Assembly: GCA_018902385.1 (NCBI GenBank)
Contig: JABSSW010000005.1
Span: 434,001 to 498,000 of the forward strand
Direction of reading: 5' to 3'
Length of the DNA: 64,000 nt
Origin: Physcia stellaris
Lineage: Eukaryota > Ascomycota > Lecanoromycetes > Caliciales > Physciaceae
The translations under genes were made by a program, and so were the position numbers. Below are positions 17,001-57,643 of this stretch, one piece after another. How positions within the stretch are numbered: position 1 is the stretch's first letter; each line of letters opens with the position of its first letter. The notes under the pieces are model-generated. The model searched no databases. It saw only the letters and a list, made by a program, of their open reading frames with translations, and was not told where the DNA came from.

Positions 17001-18212
17001 CCAGACAACAAAGGCGGATTACAAGCAGGGCCAGTGTCACCGACGTGGATGTCAGCAGTATCGTATACAGTGCGTCGCCAGACTTCGGCCAAGGCAATGC
17101 CGGTGGGCTATCTGCAGAGGATCTGTACGACATGACGGAAATCTGGACATGTCTTGGTGTACTTGTCCGTGGCTTCCAAGGCAAGCGAGATCTTGCACGG
17201 GAGGTAGGCATCTTCGAGAGCGCAGACATCGCTTCTGGTGATGTTGAGCGAGAAGACGCAGTTCTTGGTAAGGAGTACTTGTTGACCCTAAAAGAAGCAC
17301 CATAGCTAATACAACGCAGAGGAATGGACTTACCACCTACTGACTCTCGCTCCACCCGTCGTCCTTGATGTTACCTCTCCCAACAGCCCCACAGCCACAA
17401 CATTCGCACACGCTCAGGCCCGAGGTTACACCCTATGGACTCCTCCTGCCCACGGAGTTTCCCGCTCCACTTTCCTCAAAGAACCTCTTTCTCGAATGTA
17501 TGAAGAGCGCATGGCGGAGCGCCATCCCACCGTCAGCATTACCACAACCAACTCGCCTGTCCCCAATCCCGACCCTTCATCCCCTACAACCCCTAGCGAA
17601 GCCTTAGCCTCCCGCCAGCGCTGCGCTGAACACGCAAAAACCATCCGCGCGAAGCGTAACGACCCATCCTTCAAGGCGCTTCCGCCTAGCGAAGAGCGAC
17701 CGATGAGCAACTATCCGGATGTTTTCTTGAGGCTCGATGGAAGCTACCCAGATGGCAATTATCCCGATACACCCACGATCCCACCTATGCCCATGGGATT
17801 ACCAACTCCTGCTGCGACTCCTTCTCCGACAAGGGTCCACCTCACTATTCCCGCGTCGCCATTTCGCAAACCCACCACCCCTTCCCCACATCTCCAAACC
17901 CCTGCGATATCTCTTCCCTCAAACGTTCCCACAGGCCCACAAGTTCGCGATCCAGTTGACGTAGCTGTTGATAGGCTTGTCGCGATGGGTTTTGAGGAGC
18001 GAAAGGCGAAGAAGGCGCTGGCGGATACTGATAGCGGTAACAGCGTCGACTTTGACCGTGCTGTGGAGGTCCTAGTCAGGGATCGCAAGAGAGATGTCGG
18101 CAACCTGATGCACGGTAGCTATCGAGGGCGCAAGGCCGATGGAGAGGGTGCCAGCCCGTGTGGTCTGGGCCTCATTGGTGCCAGTGGCGAGCAGCCTGTG
18201 CTGTGGACCTGA
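14093..18212 (+). CDS. Large low-complexity protein with C-terminal UBA domain
   Basis: Two exons, 14093-17267 and 17320-18212, are joined by a 52-nt intron (GTAAGG...gctaat...CAG); the join gives VLEEWTYHLLTLAPP. The product is 1355 aa. The first ~850 residues are rich in Ser, Pro and basic residues, with many short phospho-site-like clusters (RSSSMKRRQ, SRASSLRSK). A better ordered alpha-helical block lies around FATATVSRGFYRTFKRHELPLMKNALYGMSP. The C-terminus carries a UBA-like helix bundle (DVAVDRLVAMGFEERKAKKAL). The UBA module suggests ubiquitin binding; the rest I do not recognise. The start may be the Met at 14093 or the one at 14105 (CACCATGG, a better context). The frame is open upstream to 13,958, so a longer N-terminus is not excluded. 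Confidence 0.82.
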
Positions 18213-31915: not shown

Positions 31916-32491
31916 CTAGTTGTTCAGAATTGTCTCAGAATCTTCCGTTTTTGAAAATAGAAAATCGTGATTTTCGACTCGTACAATAATCTTTTTGTTC
32001 TTTTTCGACTTCGTTGTCAATCTTTTTTTCTTTGCTAATTTTGAAAATTTCTCTGTGTTCATTTTTAGATCATCTAGATACGTTTTGAAAATGTTATTTT
32101 TCGTTCTCAACGAACGATTCTGTCGTTTTAGTTTTTCAATTCGTGTACGAAAAAATTTTGTCGACTTCAATCATAATGCGAATTGTTTTTTATTGACAAT
32201 TTCGTTAACGATTTGTTTTCGAATCAATTTCACAGCTTTGTCTTCAATCGTTAATCGAATTTTCTTCATTTTGAGCATGAATTTGTCGATTTTACAAACA
32301 ATGAATTGATAAATCAAATTGACACGCGTCTTTTCGTTGATTTTTTTGTTTTCGAATGTTTTTGCGATTTTTCGAAACTTTCTCGTAAAAAGATTTTTGT
32401 TTTGTTTCAATTGTCTCATACGTCTTTTTCGAATTTCAGTTTTTGTTCGAAACAAATTTGATTCACGAATTCTATTTTTGAAAAACGTCAA
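31916..32491 (-). pseudogene. Lys/Arg-rich ORF fragments downstream of integrase
   Basis: Two adjoining minus-strand pieces (31916-32170 and 32171-32491) encode charged, coiled-coil-like sequence (RTRIEKLKRQNRSLRTKN). They could be an additional ORF or the far C-terminus of pol. No domain is recognised; Gly, Pro and Trp are missing as elsewhere in the element. Confidence 0.35.
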
Positions 32492-32863
32492 ATCGAATTG
32501 TTCAAAATTTTTTAAACGTTTATTCGATTATATAAATTCGTCGTTGTTTTCTTTGAGTATCAAATGATAATATTTTTCGAACAAAACATCTTTAAAATTT
32601 CAAACGTATGAGACTGTGATTCATCGTTTTTTAGTCGTAAATGACGTGTCGTTGTTTAATTTCAATAATTTTTTTTCGCTAAATCTATTTTTCATGAAAA
32701 CGTTCTTCGTGACGTGTTTATATTTTTGTTTTTGTTTTGTTGTCATTTTTTTTTTTTTTTTTTGTTTTGTTCGATTCAACAATTTTTGTTGTCGATTTCT
32801 TTTTTTTAACACTCATCGCTTGTTTTTGAAACTTTTGAAGAATTTTCTCTGTGTATCGAGAAA

Positions 32864-32942
32864 GTTTTTTCGTGTTTTTTACAGTTTTTTTCGTGTTTTT
32901 TGCAATCTTTTTCGTGTTTTTTGCAGTTTTTTTCGTGTTCAT
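32864..32942. repeat. T-rich tandem repeat, about four ~20-bp units
   Basis: Units of the type tttttcgtgttttttgca follow one another; on the minus strand they read as repeated KNTKK. Confidence 0.75.
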
Positions 32943-34429
32943 TGTTTGTTGCTTTGTTGTTTTTTTTTGCTTTTTCTGTTTTTTCTTATTTTTATTTTTT
33001 TTTCTGCAATCTTTTTTTGCTTTTTTGTATTCATTGTTTGCATAGATGCTTTTTGCAAATTGATTGAAAATATGAGTCGTGATAAAGTGAATAGAAAAAG
33101 AATGTGCGAGTTTCTCGTCGTAATGTGTTTTTCAATCGAATAGTGAAATTGAATTGAATGAAAAAATGATTTCGAAAATGAGAAATTTGATAATTCGTTC
33201 ATGATATTTTTGTCGATCGCAAAGTTTTGTAATCTTGTGAAATTGAAATATTTTTGAAATTAAAACTTGAATTGAATGAAACAGACGATTCTATAAAATG
33301 AAATTTAGTTTGAAATGTTTTGAATCGAAAAACGTATCGTCGAAAATTTGAATTGCGCAATGTTATGAAGATATTGAAAAAATGAATACGACGAAAATAA
33401 TCATGTTGTCGCGAAAAAAATTCGCGAAATTGTTATCGTTTTGCGTGCATTTCGTTTCGCTCAAATATGTCATTCTGTCATAAATGATTATTTTTGTCAT
33501 TTGCGCTTTCAGATTTGAACAGTCTGTAATTGATTGTTCTATCTTGATATTTCAGATTTTACATTTCTCAGAATGAAAGTTTAACGTCATCGTGTTTTGA
33601 ACGAGATGAAAAGATTCACTACTTTATTTTTTTCGAGTTTTTTTCGAGATTTTTTCTCTCGAAACAAAAGTCGAAAAACAGTGCATCGTAAATATCAATG
33701 AATAATAAATTCAATAATGTCGATGATGATCGTCTGTCATAAATGATAACTCGTCTCGCGTAATTGTGAAATTTCATTATTTGATTTATTCATTGAGATT
33801 CATAATTTGAGCACAGCTTTTTGAGTTTTGTGATTCACATTCTGTTTGAAAATAATGCTAATTGAAATTTTCGAGATGTTATTTTACGACAAACGTTCTC
33901 AAATTGAAAAATTTCGTTAAGTCTCGAATTTGCGTAGTGATATTCAAAACGTTTTTAAATTCTGAAATTAAATGAATGTTGAAAGAAACGCTCAAATGCT
34001 ATCGTCGATTATTTTCGAACTCACTTTCAATGATTGTAAAATGAATAATGTAAATTATTGTTGCGTCAACGTTTTTCAGTATTTTTTTAAAGCATTATGC
34101 GACTTCAATCTCGCTCGATTCTCGATTATTGATTGATTAATTGTTGAAAATTCACGATTTTTTTTTTATTGCGTCATCAATTTCATTTTGCTTCGTTTTC
34201 ATAGCTATCGATTGAAATATTAGATGACACATTTCATCATTTTTTGTCGAATTTTTTCGTCTCTTTTTTTTCATCGAAGTTCTGATCGCTCGTTTGCAAT
34301 TTTGCTTTTTTAGTTTTGACTTTGTCTCGATGTTATTGTCTCACGTTTTGTCGAATTTGATTGTTTATCTCTGTTATCGATTTTCAGTCTTGATTTGAAT
34401 TCTCGTGATTTTTTTTCTCAATTCATAAT

Positions 34430-35701
34430 TTAACATCGTTTATCGAATATCGTTCTTTGATTTTCTCGATATACATTTCTCTCAGTTAGAGACTCTTTTC
34501 GTGTTGCGTCAATTTGTGAACAATATACGAATTTTTTCATTTTGTTTTCAATTTGTGCGAATGTTGTTTTTCTTGCGTCAAACGTTTGAGTTTTATCAAA
34601 CATCTCGTCGTAATTGAGTTTTTTGACGTCTTTTTGTTTTTTTTCAATCAACATTTCTTTTTGATTAAATCGCTTTTTCACGATTGTATCGCGTAATTCA
34701 TTCAATTTAAATAATCGTTGTTCAAACGCAAATTTTTCAATAACTAATTTCTTTTCAGTATTTGAGAAAAAAATTTTCTTTAAAATAGCATTCTTTATTA
34801 TTTTCATTCGCAGTGAATCTTCGTAAAATGCATTTTCGATAAAATATTTAAATTGATAGTCGAACAATATTTTTGTTGAGAAAAATTCGTATATGCGAAT
34901 TAGTTTGATATTGATTGCATTCACAACGTTAAATAATAGCAAATTTCATTCGAAAATCATCTTTGAATGATGTTGTAAAATTGCGCGAAAACAATTCAAA
35001 ATGAGACGATTGTATCGCTCGAAAAATTTTACAAACTGAAAATGCGAAATCGAAACAAAGATTTGTCGTATTTTACGATGCGATAAGTATTTTGAGAATA
35101 ATTTTTTAAAATGCGTTTCATTATCGTGATATACAATTTTTGAGCATTCGAATACGTTCATCATCTTTCTTTCGAAAAACATGACAGAATTTTCAGAAAT
35201 TGCGTTTGACATTGCGTCAACGAACAGAAATCGACACATGTAATCGACGTCAATCTGTATAAATTTCGTTTCATTTTTGACGATAAAATTGATCGATTTC
35301 AAATAGTTTGTTTCGACAAAATCGAATGATTGAATGAAAACGATAAATAGAAATTTCTCAATCGATTTTAGAGAATTCAACATTTGACAATTCGAACATG
35401 AACGACAAAATTCAAAAATATTTTTAAATCTAATCGATCAATAATATTTTTCGACTGCTTTGATTTGTGTAATTTTCTTCGAAAAATGTTCACATACGTT
35501 GTGCAATAGAACAAAAATCTGAATCATTTTTTCGATATGTAGACAACGATTATAACGTTCGAATTTCTCGATGTACGTCAATCTTTTAGAATTCTTTGAT
35601 TCAATTAAAAAAAATCTTTTAATTTTTTTCTGTGACATTTTATGAATTGCTTCAAACAAGAAACTATTCGATTTAATGACATTTCGAATCTTGTATTTCA
35701 T
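34430..35701 (-). pseudogene. Integrase of the Ty3/gypsy element (broken)
   Basis: Three minus-strand ORFs give a full integrase outline. 35701-35438 ends CEHFSKKITQIKAVEKYY, the zinc-binding His part (GHFG...KT...YYW in intact elements). Just upstream of the Met of the next ORF, near 35,390, the frame reads CSNCQ, the Cys pair. 35383-34946 is the catalytic core: Asp in IQIDVDY, Asp in VYHDNETHF (intact elements have DNG) and Glu in FFERYNR. 34942-34430 is the C-terminal region. Stops separate the pieces. Gly-to-Glu at DNG and the complete lack of Gly, Pro and Trp over about 400 residues match loss of GG and CC dinucleotides. Confidence 0.85.
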
Positions 35702-36743
35702 TATGTTCGCATATCAGAAATCGTTTAGTCATTCTTGTCAAATCACTTTTCAGTCTTTTTTCGTGATAAAAGATGTATCATCACTCGTCGTAATTGAATT
35801 TTCTGCTATTCTCGACAAATGATTCGCTAAGAAAAAAAAAGAATTATTCAACAGAAACTGTTCGTCATTTGTCGTAACTGAATCGTCTGTGACAGAAAAA
35901 ATCATCATCGTAAATTCGAAACTGAAAAGCGATGAAAATGAATAATTTATGATTTTTGACAAATCGTCTGTTATGACTAGCTCTTTTTCTGAAACATGAA
36001 TGATATTCAGATTGAATTTCGATAACGTTAATTGTCAACGAGCTATTCTATTTGTTGTATTTTCGTTTTTCAAACATTTCGTTAATGTTGAATGATTCGT
36101 GTACAATTTGATCGAATATTGAGAATTCTGTATTAATCATTTGATTTTTGTTAAACATTTCACGACTGTTAATGTTTTTCTCTCAGTAGTTTGATATTTG
36201 ATTTGTGAAGAATTGTATTGATAATTTAAAAACATCACTATTTGCATGTCGCTCAGAAATTTTTTACGATGAACGATTTCAAACGAATAATTATCAAGTT
36301 GAAATAAAATTTCGTTTGTTTCAATTTTAGAAACGTCGATAACAAAATGTCATTGACGTGTATCATTTTCGTTTGAACATATAATTTTCATAATTGTTTT
36401 TTTAATTTTCTGAAACACTCGTTCATGATTGAAAATTCACAGAAATTTTTTTTTCTGTTTAACACTTTGTTTTTTGTCATTTCTCAGAATGATGACTGTT
36501 TTTTTCACTATGATCGTACGAAAAAAAAAAAATCGATCGACGCGTTCAAAAATGTATTCTTTAAAAAAATAGCATGTACAGAAAGCGTTTCAATTTCTTT
36601 TTACAAATAGACGAAAAGTACTTTTTAAACACTTTTATTTTGTTTTCATTGAGTTTAATGTTTTTAAGATTTCGTTTATGTTTTAATAATTGTATTTTGA
36701 ACGTGAAGAATTCGCACTTTTTGAAATTCAAAATAAGTTTTGC

Positions 36744-36962
36744 TCATACTAGTTTTGAAAAATAATGAATATGTAAAAAATTAATCAATGTTTGTAAAAT
36801 GTCGAATTTTTTTACGTCGTCATCAATAAAGTGATTGAAAATTGAATGTTCAGAATTCACATTCGATAAGACAAATTTTGAATTCGATTTTGATATATTG
36901 TTTGTAACAATATTTTTTAACTGAAAATATGTTTCAGATTTTTTTGTTGTATTTTGTTTCAT
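36744..36962 (-). pseudogene. Possible reverse transcriptase fragment
   Basis: The piece VKKFDILQTLINFLHI resembles the helix that follows the catalytic YxDD box in Ty3/gypsy RTs (HVxxVLxxL), and it lies between protease and integrase where RT is expected. The YxDD box itself is not recognisable. Tentative. Confidence 0.25.
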
Positions 36963-38594
36963 TCTAAAATAACAATAAGACTCAATGATCGTATTGATGT
37001 CAAATTTGTACGCATGAGAAAAATGAATCGAAATCGTTCAAAAATCATTCGTCGCGTTCGTTTTAAATAAATATTTGACGAAAAATTGTGTTAAATTTTT
37101 GAAAATTGACTCGATTTTACGCATTGATTGATTCGTTTTGATAGTGACTTCGTTTAAATCACAGAAAACATGCATCATTCTCAATTTTTCATTTGATTTT
37201 CGAGAGAATCGTGTTCTTGAAAATCAGAAAAAATTGCATTTCATGATGATTTCAGCTTCTTCTAACAGTGAGATATTTTTTTTTTGTCATTTCATTTTTT
37301 TTGTTGTGTAAAAAACAAATTTAACTATTCGCGAAATGATATGTTGATACGTTGAAATTTTGTGTTCAATTAAATTCGTAAAAAACATATCTTTAATATT
37401 CGTAACAAAGACGTCTTTTCAGATTTTTAATAAGCAATGTATTTCATGTTTTTTTTGATTCGTAACGATCAAATCTTTCATCAAATTTGAAAAAATTTTC
37501 AATCATAAATTGAACTTTTTCGAAATTTCTGTTAATAGCTTTTTGCGAAATTCAATTGATTTTTTTTTAGTAAAAAAATTCATTTTTTTTTTCTCAAAGA
37601 TTTTTTCTTCATCATGTATTTGCATCGAGATTTCTTGATGAATGTTTACGACAAAAAAATTGAAAATCGAAATTTTTTTTTTCGACGATGATTTTGTTGA
37701 TCATTTTTGATAATTTTCGATCATTTGTATTTGCGTTTTTTGAGATTTGACTCTCGTCGCATTTTTAATCGAATTTCTCATTTTATGTTCGAATTTTTGT
37801 CGACAAACGATTTTTTCATTTTCGTCGTGTTCAATTCTCATTCACATCGTAAACAGATGATTTATGATAGAAAATTTGAAAAGCATTTTTTTGTCTCGTC
37901 ATTCATTTTTTTTCTTCGAATTTATTTTTGTCGTCAAAATGTTTCTCGAAACAAATCTACGTCGAATCTTTTCTATGACAGAAAACTTTGATGTCATAAT
38001 GTAGCTTGTCGATATTTCAATTTTCTGATGATAGTTTACGTAATTGATTTCATCGCTTTTCATTTTTAACAGCGTTTTTGTCAATCTTTTTTTTTGATTT
38101 TTTATTCTTCGATCATACATCGTCGCTTTTCATTTTGACGTCGACATCATTTTTTTCGATCTTTTTTGATTTTGTTGAGTGATTATTTTCGTTCGTTCTA
38201 CGTCTCAATGTCGTGAAAAGAACATGATTTTTTTCTGATTTGCGTTTTTTTTCAAATTTATTTTCATCATCAGATTAGTTTTTTCGTTTCACATTTCTTT
38301 TTCAGTTTCTTTTACGATTTGTCGAAGAATTTCTTCAACTTTTTTTTTTTTTTCGTATTTCAAATCAATGAACGTTTCGACATCAACATTTTGCGCTAAC
38401 GCGACGTTCATTTCAATTTCGTATATTTTTTTTCGATTTTTATTTTCGAAATCAAACATTTTCATTTTTTTGTAATCTTTTGCAATTGCGTTTTTAATTC
38501 AATATTCGTCAAATTCGTACAAATCGATTGCGATCACGTTTTTCAATCACGATTTTTTTAAAATCATCGAGTAAATCGTTTTCTTTGACATAAT

Positions 38595-38780
38595 TCAAAT
38601 TTGTATCACACGATTAACTTTTGTCGTGACGATTTTCAGTTTGATATATTTCGAAAAACGAATTTTGTTTTCGTTTGCTATGATCATTGTCATAAATTTT
38701 TTCGAATATGTGATTTCGTTCATTGCGTGAAAAATTCGCTCAAAAATGAAATTCAATGTAAAGTTCGAATCGACAAACAT
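38595..38780 (-). pseudogene. Retropepsin fragment
   Basis: FVDSNFTLNFI matches the aspartic protease active-site region (LVDSG[AS]TxNFI) with Gly-to-Asn and Ser/Ala-to-Phe changes of the kind expected when GG and CC are lost. It sits between the zinc knuckle and integrase, as in Ty3/gypsy elements. Confidence 0.6.
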
Positions 38781-39774
38781 CTTTTTGATGTTTCAAATAT
38801 TAAACAATGATTTGCGAAATCTGATCATCGCTTGAATGTAAAAATTTTTCATTAAAAAATTCGTTAATGAGATTTGAAATGAAACAAAACTAATGAAACG
38901 ACGATAAAATTTTTGAAATCGTTTGTTGAATTTTTTGCGAAACGTTTCATGCGTTTGTAAAAATTTTTTGATTTCATCGTGTGTCGACGTAGTGAATTTG
39001 ATCGAAACACATTGTTTTTTGTCATTTCATGAACATGATTGATTTTTTTTATTTGTTTTGCAAATTGTACATTCTTTTTGTTTTTTGTCGTAGAAAGTTT
39101 TTCTTTTTTTTTTCGATTGAAATTTGACTGTAATTTTATTGCGTTTGTCAATTGTGTTTTTGTTCGCGAAATCATGATTAATAATTGTTTCAACTCAATG
39201 TTAATGTTGATATTTTTTATTCAATCATTGAAGTCAAACATTTTTTCGTTTGCTTTCACAATTTTTATGAATTGTATTTGTGTTTTATTGTTTGTTGCTC
39301 GCTTTTGCTGAATTTTTGATATGAATGAAATCAATGAAACAAATGACGCACTCGAATTATCTCGTATCGTTTTCGAACTCGATGATTTATTTTTCATAAT
39401 TTCATCGATAAAATCAAATTCTTCAAAATCTGTAAAAGATTTCGATGTTTGATCTTGTTAAAATCGATCATTGTTGAAATTTTCAATGCGACGAGACATT
39501 TTGATTTTGAATTTCTTTTGATTCACTATTTTTTTCAAAATGAAATTTTGATCAATTTCGTATTCGATCGCATCTTTTTTAACGATCAACATTTTTTTTT
39601 TTTGTTTTCACAAAGTTCGCATTGATTGCTTTGATTCAAATACATTTGTTCATCGTTTAAATTTCATTCGTCGATCATCTTTTGTCATTTTGAAATATCA
39701 TGAATGTTTGCTGAATAACAATCGTGTTCGATCATAAAAATCTTTGTCGTACGAAATTCTTTCGCAAATGATAT

Positions 39775-39960
39775 CTATTGTGTCGTCGAACGTTTTTTTT
39801 TTTCATTTTTTCGAAACAAGCGATTTCTATCTTTTTTAGACGTTTGAGAATGAGAACATTGTTTGAAAAAATGTTCGATTTCTTCACAATTATAACAAAT
39901 AAAAAAATTGACATTGTTGAACGACGTTGCAAATGATGCAGTTGCAAACGCGTAATACAA
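39775..39960 (-). pseudogene. Gag nucleocapsid zinc knuckle
   Basis: CYNCEEIEHFFKQC is an exact C-x2-C-x4-H-x4-C knuckle. The two Gly usual in this motif read as acidic or other residues, consistent with GG loss. Confidence 0.85.
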
Positions 39961-39966
39961 AAAATG

Positions 39967-41173
39967 TTATAAATTTTTTCTGAAATTTTTATTTTGTTGT
40001 TTTTCATATTTTTGACTTTGATATTTTTGTTGATTATTCCGATTCTGATTGTTTTGATTTTGATTTTTTTGATTGTATTTTTGTTCTTTTTGATTGAATG
40101 CATCACTACGATAAAGAGCAAAAACATTCTCGACATTTCTTTGTTTTTCAAATTGACGTTTTCTGAATGATGTTGAGACGTTGAAGTCGACAAATTGTCG
40201 AATAAAAATCGAAATGATTTTGTTGTTTTGATTTAGAATGATTGCAAATATACGATTCTTTGAATTCATCTCTCGTTGTAATTTCGTTATCGAATTCTTT
40301 TTATCTTGATTTTCGATAATATTTTTGACTAATTTGACAATGATTTCAAAATCGTACGTCGAATTTTCTTTTTGAACAATTATTTTTTTAACGATTTTTT
40401 TTGTCATGTCATCGCTCAATTTCGAGATCATTTTGTATAACATTTGATTTTGTATCTCTTTGAAAAATATTCGTTGAATTTTTCTCGTTTTCTCAACATA
40501 TTCACTCAACGACTTTTTAGTTGTTTGAGATTATATAATGCATTCAAAATCGATTCGTATTCAATTTTTTTCTTTTTAGAAAATCTCTTTGCGAAAATCT
40601 TTTTGAAAACATTTCAATTTTTCATCAGAATATTTTTTTGATCATTAATTCATTTGATTGCGTCTTCTTTAATTTTGAATATCACGATGTAACATTGAAA
40701 AATTTTTTTGTTTTTCGTGTTTAATTGTGATTGAATCAAATATTGAATTTCGATGAGTCGTAATCATCGAAAAAATTTTTCGAAAAATATTCGTGAAAAT
40801 TCGAAATCTGTATGATTTTCGAAAACATTTTTTCTTGATAATCAATTACGACAAACGTCTTTAACGTATTGATGTTTTTGAAAATGATAAATTGCTTCGT
40901 GAAATGTTGTGAAAATATCTTCACAAAAATCGTTTTACGATGAGAATAAAAAATTTTTCGTTGAAATTGCTTAGAAAATGAAATCAATTCGTCGATGAGA
41001 ATGAAAACTCGATTTTTTGATTTTGAAAATTCAATAAAAATAGCGAAACTGTCTATCGCAAAAGATTTTGATGAATCAATAAATTCAATTGATAACTCAA
41101 ATATCGAAATGATTGCGAATGTTGAAATAATTTCGAAAAATTCGTTTTTCAGTGTTTTGCTATTTATCGACAT
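39967..41173 (-). pseudogene. Gag body of the Ty3/gypsy element
   Basis: Two ORFs, 41173-40736 (145 aa) and 40509-39967 (180 aa), precede the zinc knuckle in the same direction. The second has helical capsid-like sequence and ends in a Gln/Asn/Lys-rich tail (QNQNNQNRNNQQKYQSQKYE). The many CAA/CAG codons in that tail remain intact although CpA is the normal RIP target. Confidence 0.65.
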
Positions 41174-41836
41174 TGAAGTTTTTGATTTTTGAACAAATGA
41201 TTTAGTTGAATTTCACAAACGAATTTTTTTCGTTTGTTTTTTTTCTCGAATCTTGTACAAATCAGAAATAAAATCTATGTCAAAATTCGATTTTGACATC
41301 AATTTATTTTCAGAAAAAGATTTATGATAAATGTTTTCAATCTACTTCGATGAAATGATTGAAAGATGATAAATTCTTAAAAAAAAAATTATGACAAATG
41401 TTTTCTCTCAATCGTTGAGAAAATCGATCAACGAGAATGCGCATTTTTCGAAAGAGACGAATTCGATTGAATTTCGATTAGAGTCGATTATGATAGAATT
41501 GTCAAAATTGATAACGAAAAATGCGAATATTTCGAGTAAACAAATCGATGATAATAAAGTGAATTGTTGAATGATCTTGCGATGTGATAGAGTCGTAGTC
41601 TTGATATTTAGTGTAAAAATGAAATGATGAATGAAATTCTTGATGATGAGTAGTCGTTAATGATGAGTAGTCGTTACTGTACTGTAGATTCTGAATTTTG
41701 GCGTTTGACGATCTTCAAGCTCTTTTATCGTAGTTTCAATCTCACTCGACGTTTTGTACTCTCGTGACACTCAACTTCGAATCTTGACTGCGAATCAATG
41801 ATAGAGATTTAGATAATCTTTGGCTAAATCATCAAA

Positions 41837-41996
41837 TGAAGAGTTCAGATAGTAGAAACAACAAAGAAGTCGATATTACGATAGGGCACAATTGGATGAT
41901 AAAGATGATTAATTTACTATCTACGGCCAGAGGCCAGATATGCACTTTGATGACTAACTAGCGGCCATACCGGCCATAGCACCTGCAGGCCCTACA
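41837..41996 (-). repeat. Right LTR (5' LTR in element orientation)
   Basis: 160 bp, TGAAGAG...CCCTACA, alignable gap-free to the left LTR. The element body begins to its left. Confidence 0.93.
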
Positions 41997-42000
41997 CCGT
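41997..42000. repeat. Target site duplication CCGT, right copy
   Basis: Same four bases as at 31217-31220. Confidence 0.85.
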
Positions 42001-42592: not shown

Positions 42593-43711
42593 ATGTTCAG
42601 GAATATCTGGTGCAGCTTGTTCGCTGCCTACTTTACGATGATTCATCTTGTACATGCAGTAGATTACGGCGTTGGTTTTAGCCTATCACTTGATTACGGG
42701 TGAGTACCAAACAATGAGCCCACCCTCTCGATAATCACGCTGATTGAGATTCATAGTACCGCCAGCATCCATTTCTCAAATGGTACAGCTGTCGACATTG
42801 CCAAAGTAGAGGGGAGTCCGGCATACAAGCAAATGATGAGATCGATCGATGTCTTATACCCTGAAGCTATTACCCCACGATCAACCCCTGGGGCATCTTT
42901 GCACAACAGCCGAGCAACCCAGGAAACATTAAAGCTTCAATCATATCGCGATTACCTACCACCTTGGTTAGGTGGACACGATTATCGCTTGCAACCTCTA
43001 CCTTCAATGTTACGAGCTCTCAAGGTAGCAACCGAATCGTACTTGGAAAGCCCCCTTTCAGACGCAGAAGTCGTTATCCCCTTTCCCGTCACCAACTCCT
43101 TTCTCAATACTCTTCGCTCCGCCTGCTCCTCGCTCTCACTGAGGATGCCTATGTCCGCACAGCCGCCAGCAGGCATCCTCGCCGCGCGTGTCCGTGGCAT
43201 TGGCGGACAGTGCAACGAGGACGTGGATTCTTCGGAGTCAAATCAGCAAGATGACCATGAGCAACTCATCCTCACAGTCGACTACAGTCGCGCGGCAATA
43301 ACGGCGCTGCTGGTGTACGAAGATTGCAGCGTTTTCGAGTCCCGGCGCGTATTACACGACATACAACTCGGTGCCGATGAACTTTCCGGAGCAAATGATC
43401 TGGACACTCCGCGTGATCTTCTCGCTCGAGCACTCCGTGAGGTCATCAGCTTGCCACTCGAAGATGGAAACGGTGCTGGCCTGACACGGATCAGTGAGTT
43501 GGTGCTGTTGGGCGAATCGGCGGGCGATCCACGGCTACACGACGCGTTGACCGAAGTCCTGAGCGAGCGTTCCTACGAATTCTCTGCAGCGGCCTGGAAG
43601 AGGCCTATGGGAGGCTTTGATCCCTTGTTTGCCGCTTCGAGAGGTTTGGCTCTTGATTGTTGGGACCGCCTGAGTAGCCCTCCTCGCAGCGGACGGTGGG
43701 GTGAGCTATAA
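42593..43711 (+). CDS. Secreted protein with Hsp70/actin-like ATPase fold remnants
   Basis: Exons 42593-42699 and 42757-43711 are joined across a 57-nt intron; 353 aa. The N-terminus (FRNIWCSLFAAYFTMIHLVHAV) is a signal peptide. VDYGVGFSLSLDYGTASIHFSNGTAVDIAKVEG resembles the first phosphate loop of Hsp70-like proteins but lacks the usual GIDLGTT. The C-terminal ELVLLGESAGDPRLHDALTEVL and GGFDPLFAASRGLALDCW match fungal secreted Hsp70-like proteins of unknown role. The ATP-binding loops look degenerate, so chaperone activity is not predicted. It lies 600 bp from the retroelement. Confidence 0.78.
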
Positions 43712-44407: not shown

Positions 44408-44974
44408 TTATATAAGCCGATAGTTTCCCTCAGTCTTCCCCTTCTCAAAAAACCATGGGTATCGCGCCATGAACGTATCAATCTCGCGGTGCGCCTTCTC
44501 TTCATCTTCCGCCATCAATTCTACCTCGCCAACAGAGTGACCAAAGTCAGTATGATCGAGCACGATACCAAATTTTCCATCTGCTCGGAAAGCCTGACGC
44601 ATTGTCATAAACTTTGCCAGGATGTCAAGACCGAGATTCGGCTTCTCTTCATTGTATTGTGGCACGTGTCGTCGGACAAGGTCGCGAATGAGGGTTTGGT
44701 CAGTCGTTTCCTCAAAGGTTGATCGGTGGAAGTCTCCACTGACGCGAATCTTCGCTTCTAGGGTTGCGGACTTGTTTTCCATCCTCTGTCGAAGCCAGAT
44801 ACCGTTTTTGGACAGGACGTCTTGAGTATCGAAATAAGTATCTGTGAATCTGTGGCTGCCTAGAGATTCAAGTTGCCGGAATGCTGGAAGACCCCCGTTT
44901 GACTGTAGTGTTGCAACCAGAGATGGTTTGAATGCGAACTTTGACTCGATTTCAAGGAGACGCTTCGCTGCCAT
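44408..44974 (-). CDS. CYTH-domain triphosphate tunnel enzyme (thiamine-triphosphatase-like)
   Basis: Single exon, 188 aa. The N-terminal LEIESKF is the ExExK signature of CYTH proteins. Further charged strands follow: DTYFDTQDVLSKNGIWLRQR, SATLEAKIR and VGEVELMAEDEE. Together they build the positively charged tunnel that binds triphosphates with Mg2+. Size and motifs are closest to short thiamine-triphosphatase-like members rather than class IV adenylate cyclase, but the substrate cannot be set from sequence. It is cytosolic. It lies 610 bp downstream of the nucleotide kinase on the same strand; a functional link to the nucleotide module is only a guess. Confidence 0.87.
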   Translation of the reverse strand: MAAKRLLEIESKFAFKPSLVATLQSNGGLPAFRQLESLGSHRFTDTYFDTQDVLSKNGIWLRQRMENKSATLEAKIRVSGDFHRSTFEETTDQTLIRDLVRRHVPQYNEEKPNLGLDILAKFMTMRQAFRADGKFGIVLDHTDFGHSVGEVELMAEDEEKAHREIDTFMARYPWFFEKGKTEGNYRLI

Positions 44975-45583: not shown

Positions 45584-46388
45584 CTACTGCCATGATTTTA
45601 AGATCTCCTGTTATTCAGTTAGATCTGTTATTTCAACAGCGGGGCAGTAGCTCACCGAAAGCACATTTTGGAACTCAACCCACACTTGTTCAGCATCGCC
45701 ATTTGAGTCAACCTGACCGTTATTAGCAAATAAACAACATTCTTCAGCAGAGCATACCTGGCAGACTGGCCGGTCCATCTTTGATAGGTAGTCCTCGATC
45801 ATAGGCACCGTCTCGTCCAGATGGGATTGCAATCGATGCTCGGCAATTGCTATATCATCGTCATCCCTGTTCCGCTGCTCAAGTCTTCGTAATGCAATGT
45901 CTTTCTGGCATGGAAGTACTACAGTCCCCATGACCTCTCCAATCTAGCAAGAATTAGCTGAGATTGACAGAAATTGTGGTATGCCAAACCTCCTGTCGAA
46001 ACTTCTGAGCTTGATCAAGGTTCCGGGGAAATCCGTCCAGCAGGATTCTCCGCGATTTATCATCAGACAATACTTCTAGATAGCTTCTGAGAGCGGCAAT
46101 AGCGGCATCACTACTGACAAGTATACCCTTTGGGAGCTTCGAGTTGATTTCTTCGGCAAATGGTGATGTCGGTCTTTGCGCCTCTCGACGAAGTAGATCG
46201 CTCATGACAATATGCTCTATACTAGAAATCACTTGAGCAGCTCGTTTGCAAAAACAAGTTTTGCCTGCACCCGGAGGACCTGACAGATCAATCAATCAGT
46301 CGATAGATCAACGACTTAATTGTGATTATGCTTGGATGACCGTACCTAGGACGAAGACGATCGGCCGCTGGGGAGTTCTGCTCGCCAT
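45584..46388 (-). CDS. UMP/CMP-kinase-like nucleoside monophosphate kinase
   Basis: Five exons: 46388-46346, 46279-45990, 45943-45758, 45712-45656 and 45607-45584; introns of 66, 46, 45 and 48 nt. The product is 199 aa. The Walker A loop GPPGAGKT (residues 15-22, split by intron 1) is followed by the NMP-binding segment MSDLLRREA and by LLDGFPRN (about 94-101). The short lid region has the pattern R-x3-R...DDDD...HR. The short lid and DGFPRN fit the UMP/CMP-kinase branch of the adenylate kinase family; adenylate specificity is not excluded. Intron 3 is 45 nt without stops, so its retention would insert 15 residues. No targeting signal is seen. It is transcribed divergently from the viperin gene. 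Confidence 0.86.
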
Positions 46389-46913
46389 TATGGAAAGTGT
46401 TGCTGCCACTTCTATGGATTCTAGTAATTTGTTCTTCGATTTGAGAAAGTGACTAACCTATATGGAAATCCAACCCAGACATTGAGCCTTTGCTAGACCA
46501 TGGTGGATGCTAGAACGTGGTGGATGCTAGGACATGGTGGATGCTGGAATACTGGTGCTCTGCTAAAGCCTCAACAAAGGGCAACTCCAGTACATGCTGG
46601 CAACCATGAAAACTCCATTTTTATCTGTATGCAGCCATGTTTGGTCCACAAATCTTTCATTGAAACCAAAGTCGATGTTCCTGCATTCCGCACATTAACC
46701 CAGGGGCATTGTATAGAGATCAGGGCAACCTACATGACCAGCAAGCTGCATGACCGCCAGCAAAGCAGATGATCATGACAAAGCCAAAAAAAATTGTACA
46801 AGTGCTAATAAGTTGGCAACTTCCACGTCTGTAAGACTGTCCAAAGAGTATAATCTGGTCATCACGATCTTCTCCCACAAGCAAGGACAGGATCACTGTC
46901 GCGGACTTCAAAC
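46389..46913. promoter_or_regulatory. Shared divergent promoter region, kinase and viperin genes
   Basis: This 525-bp region lies between the two start codons and must hold both promoters. It contains three 17-bp tandem units at 46,499-46,549. No TATA box or known operator is claimed. Confidence 0.6.
46499..46549. repeat. Three tandem 17-bp units in the divergent promoter
   Basis: Units of the form catggtggatgctagaa, with one to three changes each, run head to tail. They are good candidates for repeated binding sites or simply a minisatellite. Confidence 0.8.
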
Positions 46914-48324
46914 ATGCTCGTTCTCACAACTTTGCTGGTTCTGATTCTATCCTTCCTAGCCGTTCGTATCTACCTAAAGAACGTGAAGAAACTCGTTGCA
47001 CCGGAAGATGCATCTCCGAAGAAACCCATCTCGGTGAATTACCATTTCACAAGGAAAGTAAGCAGCTTTATCCAACCGGACCTCTCCTCCCTCCCCATCC
47101 GGTAACAAGCTCCTCCATTTGCTAATTGAAATAGTGTAATTACGAATGCGGCTTTTGCTTCCACACAGGTGAGCGATCATTACACTGATTTATACTCCGA
47201 TCCCCCACTCCTGGCCTTGCGACGATAGTAGAACACAAGTTGACAGTCACTGACTCGTGGCCCCCACGATGAGCTCAACGCTTACCCAAGTACGGAATTG
47301 CTGACAGCCTGATCAACAGCGAAAACATCCTATATCCTCCCTCTCGTAGATGCCAAACGTGGAATCAAACTTCTGGCAGAAGCTGGCATGAAGAAGATCA
47401 ACTTCGCTGGAGGAGAGCCGTTCTTGTACCCCAAGTTTCTGGGAAAACTGGTCAAGTAAGTCCTCTCTGAAAGACCCAATCACAGTCCCTCAACAGACTT
47501 GGCCTGGTACTCATGATCCACCATAACGGTACAGATACTGTAAAGAAGAACTCCAACTGGAATCCGTGTCCATCGTCACAAACGGCAGCCTCGTCAAAGA
47601 GCGCTGGCTCGAGACCTACGCCCAATACCTCGACATCATGGCCGTATCCTGCGACTCTTTTGACGAAACTACCAACACGTCCATAGGCCGCGGCAAAGGC
47701 ACCCATCTCGAGACCTTCGTTAACCTAAGCCTGCTTTGCCGGAAGTACAACGTCAAGTTCAAGGTCAACACGGTCGTCTGCCGCTACAACTTCAACGAGG
47801 ATATGAATGCCAAGATCGAACAGGTTGCACCTTTCCGCTGGAAATGTTTCCAGGTGCTTGTTGTTCCGGGAGAGAATGATTCAAGCGCTACGTTGAGGGT
47901 CAGTGAAAGACTGTGCCTTTTCCCACTGAACATCGCCAGATGGGTAGTTCTAAACGTGTACCCAGAACGCTCAACGCTTCGTCATCTCAGATGAGGAGTA
48001 CGAGATTTTCTGCCGCCGCCACCAACACCAGAAAAGCTTTGTCCCAGAGTCCAACGCCGTGATGAAGAGCAGCTACGTCCGTCCCCTCGCATCAACCATT
48101 CTGACCAAAGAGACTTACTGACCTGCCCATCAAAGCTCATCTTGGATGAATACATGCGCTTTCTCAACAAAGGGGTGAAAGAGCCTACGAAGAGCATTCT
48201 GGAAGTCGGTGTCCCGGCTGCTTTTGATGATGTTTATTGGGACGATGAATCCTTCGTAAAGCGAGGCGGAGAGTACGATTGGCAGAAGGAGAAGAAGAAA
48301 GAGGGCTCGGCATACGATTTTTGA
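46914..48324 (+). CDS. Viperin-like radical SAM enzyme
   Basis: Six exons: 46914-47057, 47135-47168 (34-nt microexon), 47320-47455, 47535-47898, 47966-48076 and 48136-48324; introns of 77, 151, 79, 67 and 59 nt. The product is 325 aa. Residues 2-20 are a hydrophobic helix, likely an ER or lipid anchor as in animal viperin. The cluster motif C49-x3-C53-x2-C56 (CNYECGFC) lies in the microexon and is followed by NFAGGEP (GGEP 90-93). Viperin-specific blocks follow: [43 protein letters not shown] and [11 protein letters not shown], ending KRGGEYDW. Viperins convert CTP (some relatives UTP or GTP) to the ddh-nucleotide, a chain terminator for polymerases. A nucleotide kinase gene lies divergently next door. 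Confidence 0.94.
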
Positions 48325-49146: not shown

Positions 49147-50070
49147 ATGTCTCTCACCAAGGCAAGTAATCCCTTGACACACAACGTTAACAAGCCATAT
49201 TAACGCTCCCCTCAGGCCCAATTGACCGCTTGTATCCTCGCTCTCTGTAGCGCAATCTCGGCTACCCCGACGCGCACTCACGCCGCACTAATGGCACGCA
49301 ACACCAGTTCAGGCGATGCTCCAAATACCGTTCCAGTACCTACCCCCATCTCCATTATCGGCTTTCGTGGCGGACTGCCCGCGGGCGGCCCCGTACTCCC
49401 CGAGGAAGAAATCGGGCCCGGAAAACTCGCCTTCACCGGTTCAAACTGGACTTGCGGCGACGCCGTCTACACCCCGGCGATGATCAAGAAGACAGGCGAC
49501 TGGGTCCTGAGCAACAAATTCGGCAACGGCCTCCGGGATCCCGTTCTCTCGCCGCCCGACAATAAGAGCATCGAGGCTCTGGACCCGAGATTCGGGAAGC
49601 CTTACTCTTATCCTTGGGCTGTCTCCGCTTACAACGCGCGCGGAAGCGATAGTAAGGTCTTTATTCTCGATGGGGATCGGCAGCGGAGGGATTTCTTCAA
49701 GTTGGAATCCTGGTGCACGCTCTTTCCCTCGGACACGCAGATCTTGTTCCCCATTATGCCCGATGGCAGCATTTATGGGCAACAGGGCAAGACCGGTGCG
49801 CCGGAAGTGACTGGGCCTGCTCATACTTTGATCGACCGTAAGGGGCCCGGGCCTGATCGGCTTTTGTTTGACCGCAAGGGGAATTTCTGTGCGCTTTTGA
49901 CGGATCGAGGGAATGTGCCTTATTCTTTTAGCGCTTGCAATTCGCAAAGGAGAAGGGTGCTGTTATTACTGGGGTTAATGATCACCCGGATTTCCCCAAA
50001 AACGGGTAGGGGACTCTATGCTTTAGCATGTCTGGCAGAAAGGAGCTCACGAAAACTGTCATGGTTTTGA
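49147..50070 (+). CDS. Secreted protein of unknown function, GC-AG first intron
   Basis: Exon 1 (49147-49161) encodes MSLTK. A 54-nt intron has donor GCAAGT and a CAG acceptor; exon 2 starts at 49216. The joined N-terminus MSLTKAQLTACILALCSAISA is a clear signal peptide. The mature part has FTGSNWTCGDAVYTPAMIKKTGDWVL and ESWCTLFPSDTQILFP with a few cysteines; no family is recognised. The last ~40 residues in this frame are Arg/Leu-rich and unlike the rest. One frame over, the sequence reads AKEKGAVITGVNDHPDFPKNG and then stop (about 50,007), which looks more protein-like. The C-terminus may therefore be mis-framed. Confidence 0.7.
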
Positions 50071-56131: not shown

Positions 56132-57643
56132 TCATGTCTGATGTCGGACCAGCTCAAGTCGAAAAGAACGGAACGCGGTTTTTGCGGCCTCGTCGTGGGG
56201 TTGTAGAGAATGCAGAAACTTCGAGATTTGTTCCACACTTGAACGACACTCGAGGCTTTTGTTTACGAGGACTTCCAGATCGTGTTTGAAATCTGCCTTG
56301 TCGCTCCCAGGACAGACAAATAGTAGTTTGACACCTGCCATACTTGCTGCGGCCCACTGGATCAGTGTCTTGATCTCCTTATTCCCTCCGAACGAGCGGC
56401 ATCCCCATAGGCCTGTAACGACAGACTTCAAATTTTCTTGAGTACCTGTTGCCAAGGACGAGAAAGCAGTGTAGGCTTTTCTCAACTCGCGATCGACGTT
56501 TCCAGGCAGAACATCTGGAATTAGCGCGTTCGAGTCATAATTGTCAAGCTCAAGGGCATCCATGAATAACACTGTACGGTTTCGCCAGTATGACTGGCGC
56601 CAGTTACTACAATCATAGCCAGACTCTAGATACCGGCCAAACTGCGCTTCTCGAGCGTATCCCGTCATGGCGATCATTGCTTGTGCACCCTCGACAATCA
56701 GGACCTCTTCATCTTGTAGGGTGGGCTGGAAAATGACGACAGCACACAACTCTGGCGAACACCCAACAACCATTTCCTCCTGGCTCGCCGTTCGACCAAA
56801 ACCAACGTCTTTATTCGCGGATATGACGGAGGCTCCCATCGGTAAGCCCATGAGCTTTTCGTCGTGCTTTTGAGACGAGGTTTGTGTGACATCAAAGATT
56901 TCCAAATCTATGAGCCTGCTAGTCGTTTGGTTTAATTCTAAGTTCTGAGAGTCCATCTCTACAGTTCGTAATTCAAGCGCGATTGGCCAATCATCTATAC
57001 TATGTCTCAACGGGGACGCATCAGAAGGCTCCGCCAATAGCTTGAAGTATTGAAATAGTGAGAACAAGTATGCTTTGACCGCCTTTGGATGGGGAGTGGC
57101 TGAAGAGTACCAGATGTGAAAATCTGGCGAGCCATCTGTCATCCACTGCGGTGTTGATAGAGTGCAAAGAAATTGATGGACAAGGAGACAAGCCACTTGA
57201 CGTCTGGACAGCACTACTCGTTTATGCAGTTGAGTCAGACAGTCAAGCCTTCCGGAAAGAAAGAGCGTTGGGAGCTCGAGGGCAAGGCCCCTTAGAACCG
57301 GCCAGACGTCGACAAAGAATTTTGTTACTTGGTGGTTCCAGTATTGCGAAAATGACTCCCGTAGGAAATGGTAGTCCGTGCCCGCTGTTCCGCGCAACGA
57401 AATGGCAATGGTTTCCAGGATATCAATGAGACCATCGACCGTGGTGATGGGAGTTTTGATGACCCGTTCGAACAATTTCCAGAAGGGGACCTCGTCCTCA
57501 AACGACTCACAAATGTCAAAACGATCTTGACAAGTCAATCCAAGATCGCAGGGTAGCTGGGTGTGGACATAGTGCATACTTCCAGCTGGTTGATCAGCCA
57601 AACCAATTATGAAGAATTCCCATCGCCACCGATGGCTACGCAA
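56132..57643 (-). CDS. Poly(ADP-ribose) glycohydrolase, fungal type
   Basis: Single exon, up to 503 aa; the start may instead be the Met at 57577, where conserved sequence (MHYVHTQLPCD) begins. An N-terminal helical domain (DEVPFWKLFERVIKTPI, DGLIDILETIA) is followed by the macrodomain-like catalytic part. It reads ANKDVGFG...SQEEMVVGCSPEL, with the QEE glutamate pair at 288-290. FMDALELDN and the GLWGCRSFGGNKEIKTLIQWAAAS block follow. PARG removes poly(ADP-ribose) chains, with the second Glu as catalytic acid. The GGG loop of animal PARG is replaced by GFG here. No targeting peptide is seen. The gene is convergent with the upstream permease (177-bp gap). Confidence 0.9.
   Translation of the reverse strand: MRSHRWRWEFFIIGLADQPAGSMHYVHTQLPCDLGLTCQDRFDICESFEDEVPFWKLFERVIKTPITTVDGLIDILETIAISLRGTAGTDYHFLRESFSQYWNHQVTKFFVDVWPVLRGLALELPTLFLSGRLDCLTQLHKRVVLSRRQVACLLVHQFLCTLSTPQWMTDGSPDFHIWYSSATPHPKAVKAYLFSLFQYFKLLAEPSDASPLRHSIDDWPIALELRTVEMDSQNLELNQTTSRLIDLEIFDVTQTSSQKHDEKLMGLPMGASVISANKDVGFGRTASQEEMVVGCSPELCAVVIFQPTLQDEEVLIVEGAQAMIAMTGYAREAQFGRYLESGYDCSNWRQSYWRNRTVLFMDALELDNYDSNALIPDVLPGNVDRELRKAYTAFSSLATGTQENLKSVVTGLWGCRSFGGNKEIKTLIQWAAASMAGVKLLFVCPGSDKADFKHDLEVLVNKSLECRSSVEQISKFLHSLQPHDEAAKTAFRSFRLELVRHQT

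Follow-up and report, generated by a model that had tools for sequence, protein, structure and literature searches.

How cells shield their own RNA polymerases from didehydro-deoxy (ddh) nucleotides, and what purpose viperins serve in fungi, are to our knowledge open questions, and both bear on a locus in the lichen-forming fungus Physcia stellaris (order Caliciales; genome of 44 Mb). We analyzed a window of 64,000 nucleotides, which is the whole stretch of DNA considered here and to which all coordinates refer (positions 434,001 to 498,000 of contig JABSSW010000005.1, our contig C5, in assembly GCA_018902385.1). An earlier reading made from the letters alone, called the sequence-only reading below, had singled out a viperin gene and a divergently transcribed nucleotide kinase gene as a self-contained antiviral pair. 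The observation itself is confirmed, and the interpretation is partly supported: as a self-contained unit the pair is incomplete, as a third gene belongs to the neighbourhood. The three neighbouring genes are those for viperin (46914-48324, forward strand), the kinase (45584-46388, reverse strand) and, beside the kinase, a CYTH triphosphatase (44408-44974, reverse strand). We regard the conserved trio as the larger finding, with the viperin-kinase pair as a known theme to which a third enzyme is added. Whether the three genes constitute a conserved nucleotide-analogue (ddh-nucleotide) module of lichen-forming fungi we hold to be about evenly balanced.

Conservation of the neighbourhood in related fungi

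The sequence-only reading had proposed looking for the same linkage in relatives. For this purpose, we used the public gene numbers returned by three protein searches (with the kinase, the viperin and the CYTH protein) and paired the rows by assembly. The kinase and viperin lists comprise the best 120 rows each, every row being a cluster under one name, and more pairs may exist. Among the matches listed, 12 other assemblies, all of lichen fungi, had at least two of the three genes that could be paired, and the linkage was conserved: in 11 of the 12 the genes lie within three gene numbers of each other, in an order compatible with viperin-kinase-CYTH. Viperin and kinase are consecutive in both assemblies in which they could be paired, Loekoesia (Q9225_006821 and Q9225_006822) and Gyalolechia marmorata (Q9178_007384 and Q9178_007385). 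Viperin and CYTH are two or three numbers apart, on contigs of equal listed length, in 6 of 7 assemblies (Caloplaca ligustica, cf. Caloplaca sp. 2, Calogaya cf. arnoldii, Xanthocarpia lactea, Loekoesia and Sclerophora amabilis), the exception being Kuettlingeria, where they lie on separate contigs of 6924 and 2576 bases and are 429 numbers apart. Kinase and CYTH, finally, are consecutive in all five assemblies that offered this pair (Loekoesia, Xanthoria sp. 2, Wetmoreana brouardii, Variospora velana and Gallowayella weberi), with the caveat that the two contigs of Gallowayella weberi are listed at 17641 and 17692 bases. One further record likewise has a kinase (P0016) and a CYTH protein (P0242) on contigs of equal length, 5111 bases. 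Gene numbers in the lists reach 9185; by our estimate, two genes drawn at random would be as near to each other in about one of 1500 cases, but this figure does not allow for the relatedness of the assemblies, which are not independent. The neighbourhood is found in three separate lineages, represented by Physcia (Caliciales), Loekoesia (Teloschistales) and Sclerophora (Coniocybomycetes), and is conserved among lichen relatives.

The three families differ greatly in size, within the bounds set by a word-based search: viperin returned 2035 matches and CYTH 53, while the kinase clade comprises about 20 rows, after which scores fall to those of general kinases. Judging by genera, we take the named rows of the CYTH family and the kinase clade to be lichen fungi. 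In a tree of 48 viperins picked from the best 120 of the 2035 matches, the eight linked viperins, including that of Sclerophora, form a clade of 15 with seven further lichen rows, which we take to be Teloschistaceae; support for this clade is moderate (88/90), and that for the clade of 14 without Sclerophora is 100/99. The viperins of Heterodermia (P0206), presumably of the same family as Physcia, and of Xanthoria calcicola (P0155) fall in another clade than the linked viperins, so that lichen fungi have two viperin lines.

The viperin gene

The viperin (RSAD2/SAND) gene has six exons on the forward strand (46914-47057, 47135-47168, 47320-47455, 47535-47898, 47966-48076 and 48136-48324), and its translation of 325 amino acids is 100% identical, over the full length, to P0121, a public protein of Physcia stellaris that bears the name RSAD2. 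It had been read as a viperin-type radical SAM gene, and this assignment held. The protein has a hydrophobic N-terminus, the motif CNYECGFC (CX3CX2C), the three Cys columns of which are the same in all 19 viperins aligned, and the motif AGGEP. It scores 256.5 bits against NCBIfam NF038283, above the cut-off of 180, and 427.5 bits against TIGR04278, an "exception" model, slightly below the cut-off of 450. In the PDB it matches 6b4c, which is named viperin, with an E-value of 7.4e-120; the two chains ranking above it, with E-values to 1.2e-121, are named merely radical SAM core domain protein. Because of the NF038283 score and the PDB matches we assign the protein to the viperin family in the broad sense and make no claim to the narrower TIGR04278. 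The three PADLOC pVip models gave it 230.1, 207.9 and 194.7 bits. No second viperin locus was found in the genome, all five genome matches being exons of the gene at 46914-48324. The protein ends in YDF, and its relatives P0122 and P0130 end in LDF and LDW, respectively; the first position of YDF departs from the C-terminal iron-sulphur targeting consensus [ILM]-[DES]-[FW] given in PMC13082141.

The start codons of viperin (46914, forward) and kinase (46388, reverse) are 525 bp apart and divergent, as the sequence-only reading had it. The region between them (46389-46913) is possibly a promoter common to both genes. At 46491-46549 it also holds 3.5 copies of a repeated 17-bp unit.

A divergent ADK-fold kinase

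The kinase gene starts at 46388 on the reverse strand with exons 46388-46346, 46279-45990 and 45943-45758, after which its 3' end is uncertain, being either a single exon (45712-45611) or two (45712-45656 and 45607-45584). The model ending at 45584 has the same C-terminus as the public protein P0001, which fits the locus end of 45584 given by the sequence-only reading; the alternative ends at 45611.

The description "UMP/CMP-kinase-like" stood for the fold and not for the class. The protein matches Pfam PF00406, the ADK/UMP-CMP kinase family, with 73.5 bits (cut-off 26.8), and among solved structures its sequence is closest to yeast uridylate kinase, which (as 1uky) is also the nearest fold to a model of the relative P0004. 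The ADK fold is present together with its catalytic Arg residues. Against the NCBIfam kinase models listed, all scores were far below cut-off, with 98.8 of the 207.6 bits needed for the UMP-CMP kinase model TIGR01359. Ten kinases of the same clade gave 69.5-87.0 bits against that model (cut-off 207.6), and their best model was UMP-CMP kinase in six and adenylate kinase in four, one of the four being nearly tied. Judged by sequence, the window kinase is a divergent ADK-fold nucleotide kinase, and we do not class it as a UMP-CMP kinase.

The phosphate-binding Arg residues of DLLR and GFPR are kept in 19 of 19 clade kinases, but in the base pocket Ala is replaced by Met (18/19), Gly by Ser (19/19) and Pro by Ser (18/19); at each of these positions 12 of 13 comparison kinases have the original residue. 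The LID stretch is 10 residues long in most clade rows, compared with 12-15 in 12 of the 13 comparison kinases. A base-contact Gln is found in all 19 clade kinases but also in 3 of the 13 comparison kinases, and therefore does not settle the base preference. The roles given here to the base-pocket, phosphate-binding and base-contact positions are those generally assigned in this fold.

Two other identities for the kinase were considered and rejected. First, the genome holds three other ADK-family loci (on contigs C1, C11 and C45), one Ura6-like and two Adk-like. The lichen clade, which includes the window kinase and accounts for 14 of the 38 kinases in our tree, stands apart from these copies with a support of 100/99. 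A housekeeping copy is thereby rejected, and the grouping with housekeeping adenylate kinases that had been named as speaking against the sequence-only reading was not seen. Second, a CMPK2 orthologue is rejected, as PF02223 is absent from the protein at E <= 0.01 and PF00406 is matched instead. We take CMPK2 to belong to the thymidylate-kinase family, defined by PF02223, and the parallel to CMPK2 that had been drawn fails at the level of the family. The relative P0004 matched none of the PADLOC models at E <= 0.001, a library that may have no separate kinase model.

A CYTH triphosphatase of thiamine-triphosphatase type

The third gene (44408-44974, reverse strand; 188 amino acids in the window copy) is the sole CYTH match in the genome. 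Its product scores 50.3 bits against PF01928 (cut-off 23.2), and all five of its PDB matches are thiamine triphosphatases (ThTPases), with an identity to the animal enzymes of about 26-30%. Fold comparison gave Z scores of 17.5-20.2 with ThTPases (11.3 with an older nuclear magnetic resonance (NMR) entry), against about 9-10 with RNA triphosphatases. The ExExK motif and the Arg, Lys and Glu residues of the tunnel are present in 49 of 49 aligned CYTH rows, and a ring-stacking Trp (Trp60) in 48 of 49; the window copy has all of these. A C-terminal plug helix is seen at residues 184-191 in a model of the relative P0246, and its Lys is kept in 46 of 49 rows.

Proposed pathway and competing explanations

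The recurring neighbours suggest a small pathway for making, recycling and removing antiviral nucleotides, a proposal that builds on the observed genes, fold families, conserved active-site residues, linkage and distinctness of the kinase. The viperin, probably anchored in a membrane through its hydrophobic N-terminus, would dehydrate CTP and/or UTP to ddhCTP and ddhUTP, by analogy with the Thielavia terrestris protein TtRSAD2, also of the fungal viperin family, which produces the ddh forms of both CTP and UTP (PMC9642334). The divergent nucleoside monophosphate (NMP) kinase may raise pyrimidine NMPs (CMP or UMP) to diphosphates for viperin, or may re-phosphorylate ddh-monophosphates. The CYTH enzyme, in turn, would cut the end phosphate from a triphosphate, with the conserved Trp stacking against the ring of this substrate. 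Its likeliest target would be a ddh-nucleoside triphosphate (ddh-NTP) or a precursor NTP, and we consider a ddh-NTP the most economical substrate because the CYTH gene sits in the viperin locus. This step could limit how much of the toxic analogue accumulates, or convert it to a releasable form. Besides these substrates, we infer co-regulation and an antiviral purpose, the latter by analogy with the viperin family alone. The boldest form of the proposal, a full cycle of making, recycling and destroying ddh-nucleotides in which an ADK-type kinase was acquired independently of CMPK2 and the CYTH enzyme is the first off-switch or release enzyme of a viperin system, is tentative and on balance doubtful. 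If the proposal is true, the locus offers an entry point, the first of its kind, to the antiviral metabolism of lichens. The triphosphatase-like conserved neighbour is a direct candidate for the control or removal of the viperin product.

Several points weigh against a dedicated module. Outside the window, all three genes are named together in Loekoesia alone among the matches listed, and the kinase matches listed do not include the genes that separate viperin from CYTH in five assemblies, four with a single intervening gene (L6R39_004317, Q9166_006955, Q9172_007664 and M1837_004343) and Calogaya with two (Q9226_001619 and Q9226_001620). The divergent orientation of kinase and viperin comes from the window alone, as the gene numbers of the relatives carry no strand. 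The pyrimidine preference of the kinase is unproven, because all listed cut-offs were missed and the best models are split six to four between UMP-CMP and adenylate kinase; family models do not fix the substrate. CYTH enzymes, for their part, act on many substrates. In the window copy, moreover, the conserved C-terminal segment lies in another frame near the 3' end, which reflects either sequencing error or decay. Finally, the linked assemblies, most of which belong to a single family, are not independent of one another.

The last two of these points are also what an explanation by descent would draw on, in which viperin works in defence by itself, and its two neighbours, kinase and CYTH, remain beside it through slow change of gene order; the out-of-frame CYTH tail then looks as though weakly constrained, and neither partner family exceeds the cut-off of any substrate-specific model. 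We nevertheless consider this explanation unlikely. The neighbourhood is kept across Caliciales, Teloschistales and the separate class Coniocybomycetes, the partner families are narrow next to that of viperin, all three proteins are nucleotide or triphosphate handlers, and viperin-kinase pairing recurs elsewhere, in prokaryotic loci and in the literature (PMC12889620, PMC11249213).

Alternatively, the locus could be a nucleoside natural-product cluster, in which a ddh-nucleotide is made, dephosphorylated and secreted against other organisms. A fungal viperin has been hypothesised as a source of antiviral natural products (PMC9642334), and a triphosphatase beside viperin would aid release. Yet the scan of ten window frames against Pfam revealed neither a transporter nor a tailoring enzyme or regulator immediately next to the trio, as the frames that flank it (42704-43708 and 49207-50067) have no Pfam match, and we regard such a cluster as quite unlikely.

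The chief chemical rival is a thiamine-triphosphate (ThTP) cycle, in which an adenylate-kinase-like enzyme converts thiamine diphosphate to ThTP, the CYTH enzyme hydrolyses ThTP, and viperin is unrelated. The CYTH protein is indeed closest to ThTPase of animals, with the stacking Trp retained, and ThTP synthesis by cytosolic adenylate kinase has been reported (a title cited within PMC8615392). Such a cycle would leave the linkage to viperin unexplained, however; the lichen kinase clade has an altered base pocket, and according to PMC8615392 no specific ThTPase is known in fungi. We judge it improbable. That the CYTH enzyme acts on RNA 5' ends or tripolyphosphate rather than on ddh-nucleotides, as members of a fold family that takes in RNA triphosphatases and tripolyphosphatases (PMC4641920) might, is very improbable, given its higher Z scores with ThTPases than with RNA triphosphatases and a ring-stacking Trp that suggests a small ringed substrate.

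Comparison with known viperin and CYTH systems

The pairing of viperin with a kinase, which the sequence-only reading had named as known, is established in animals and bacteria (PMC12889620, PMC11249213). Human RSAD2 and CMPK2 share a regulatory region and are transcribed in opposite directions (PMC12889620), and the lichen window shares with this vertebrate pair the divergent arrangement of viperin and a nucleotide kinase. It differs in that the lichen kinase belongs to PF00406 and not PF02223, and in that a CYTH gene is part of the neighbourhood.

For prokaryotes, we scanned bacterial and archaeal genomes and found 94 viperin loci, 80 of which were kept for analysis. A small P-loop kinase-like protein is present at 15 of the 80, in 13 cases within 73 bases of viperin and in two fused to it. 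Ten of these partner or fusion proteins were scanned, giving seven matches to Thymidylate_kin, three to Cytidylate_kin2 (two of them the fusions) and none to ADK; the remaining five were judged by P-loop appearance. The two fusions, with Cytidylate_kin2 at the C-terminus of viperin, are from uncultured Flavobacteriales (L074:4222-5619 and L090:2045-3424). Not counted among the 15 are two archaeal loci with an unclassified P-loop frame (L091 and L093) and a locus with a kinase-like gene 1.1 kb away (L054). The window pair thus resembles the pVip and pVip-kinase systems of PADLOC, in which viperin adjoins, or is fused to, a small P-loop nucleotide kinase, and differs from them in the family of the partner, which is Thymidylate_kin or Cytidylate_kin2 in prokaryotes and ADK in the lichen. 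Since the prokaryotic partners, CMPK2 and the lichen ADK type differ, the kinases beside viperin come from at least three families, and a kinase of another family in this position supports the idea that viperin performs best alongside a nucleotide kinase of its own. No CYTH gene was found beside prokaryotic viperins, either with a lichen-built profile (80 loci) or by a motif scan (4 kb), a weak negative that had no positive control. In the literature searched, from which most subscription papers were out of reach, we recognised no account of the neighbours of fungal viperins or of a link between viperin and CYTH; one paper among those listed, a screen of interferon genes (PMC9414520), does contain both terms.

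The lichen CYTH protein shares with animal THTPA the fold, the ExExK motif, the tunnel residues and the stacking Trp, as well as the C-terminal helix in the modelled relative; it differs in its sequence, in belonging to a narrow family, in its place beside viperin, and in the out-of-frame tail of the window copy. In Arabidopsis TTM1 and TTM2, a CYTH domain is fused with a domain of the uridine-kinase type, and a review ties both proteins to senescence and to resistance against pathogens (PMC8615392). Because these plant proteins combine such domains, a functional link between a kinase-type and a CYTH enzyme is plausible. Unlike the lichen genes, they are single fused proteins with another kinase family and pyrophosphatase activity (PMC8615392), and have no viperin.

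Apart from these systems, 15 loci were collected from viral contigs (IMG/VR), and near full-length viperin-like matches with 30-31% identity were seen in three of them (L100, L101 and L102).

Other features of the window

Positions 32001-42000 form a sharply AT-rich block, with a guanine-plus-cytosine fraction of 0.25-0.28 compared with about 0.5 in the flanks; it resembles a mutated repeat island and ends about 2.4 kb from the CYTH gene. On the other side of the trio, about 8 kb from viperin, a reverse-strand frame at 56132-57643 is poly(ADP-ribose) glycohydrolase-like (PARG_cat_C, 136.6 bits).
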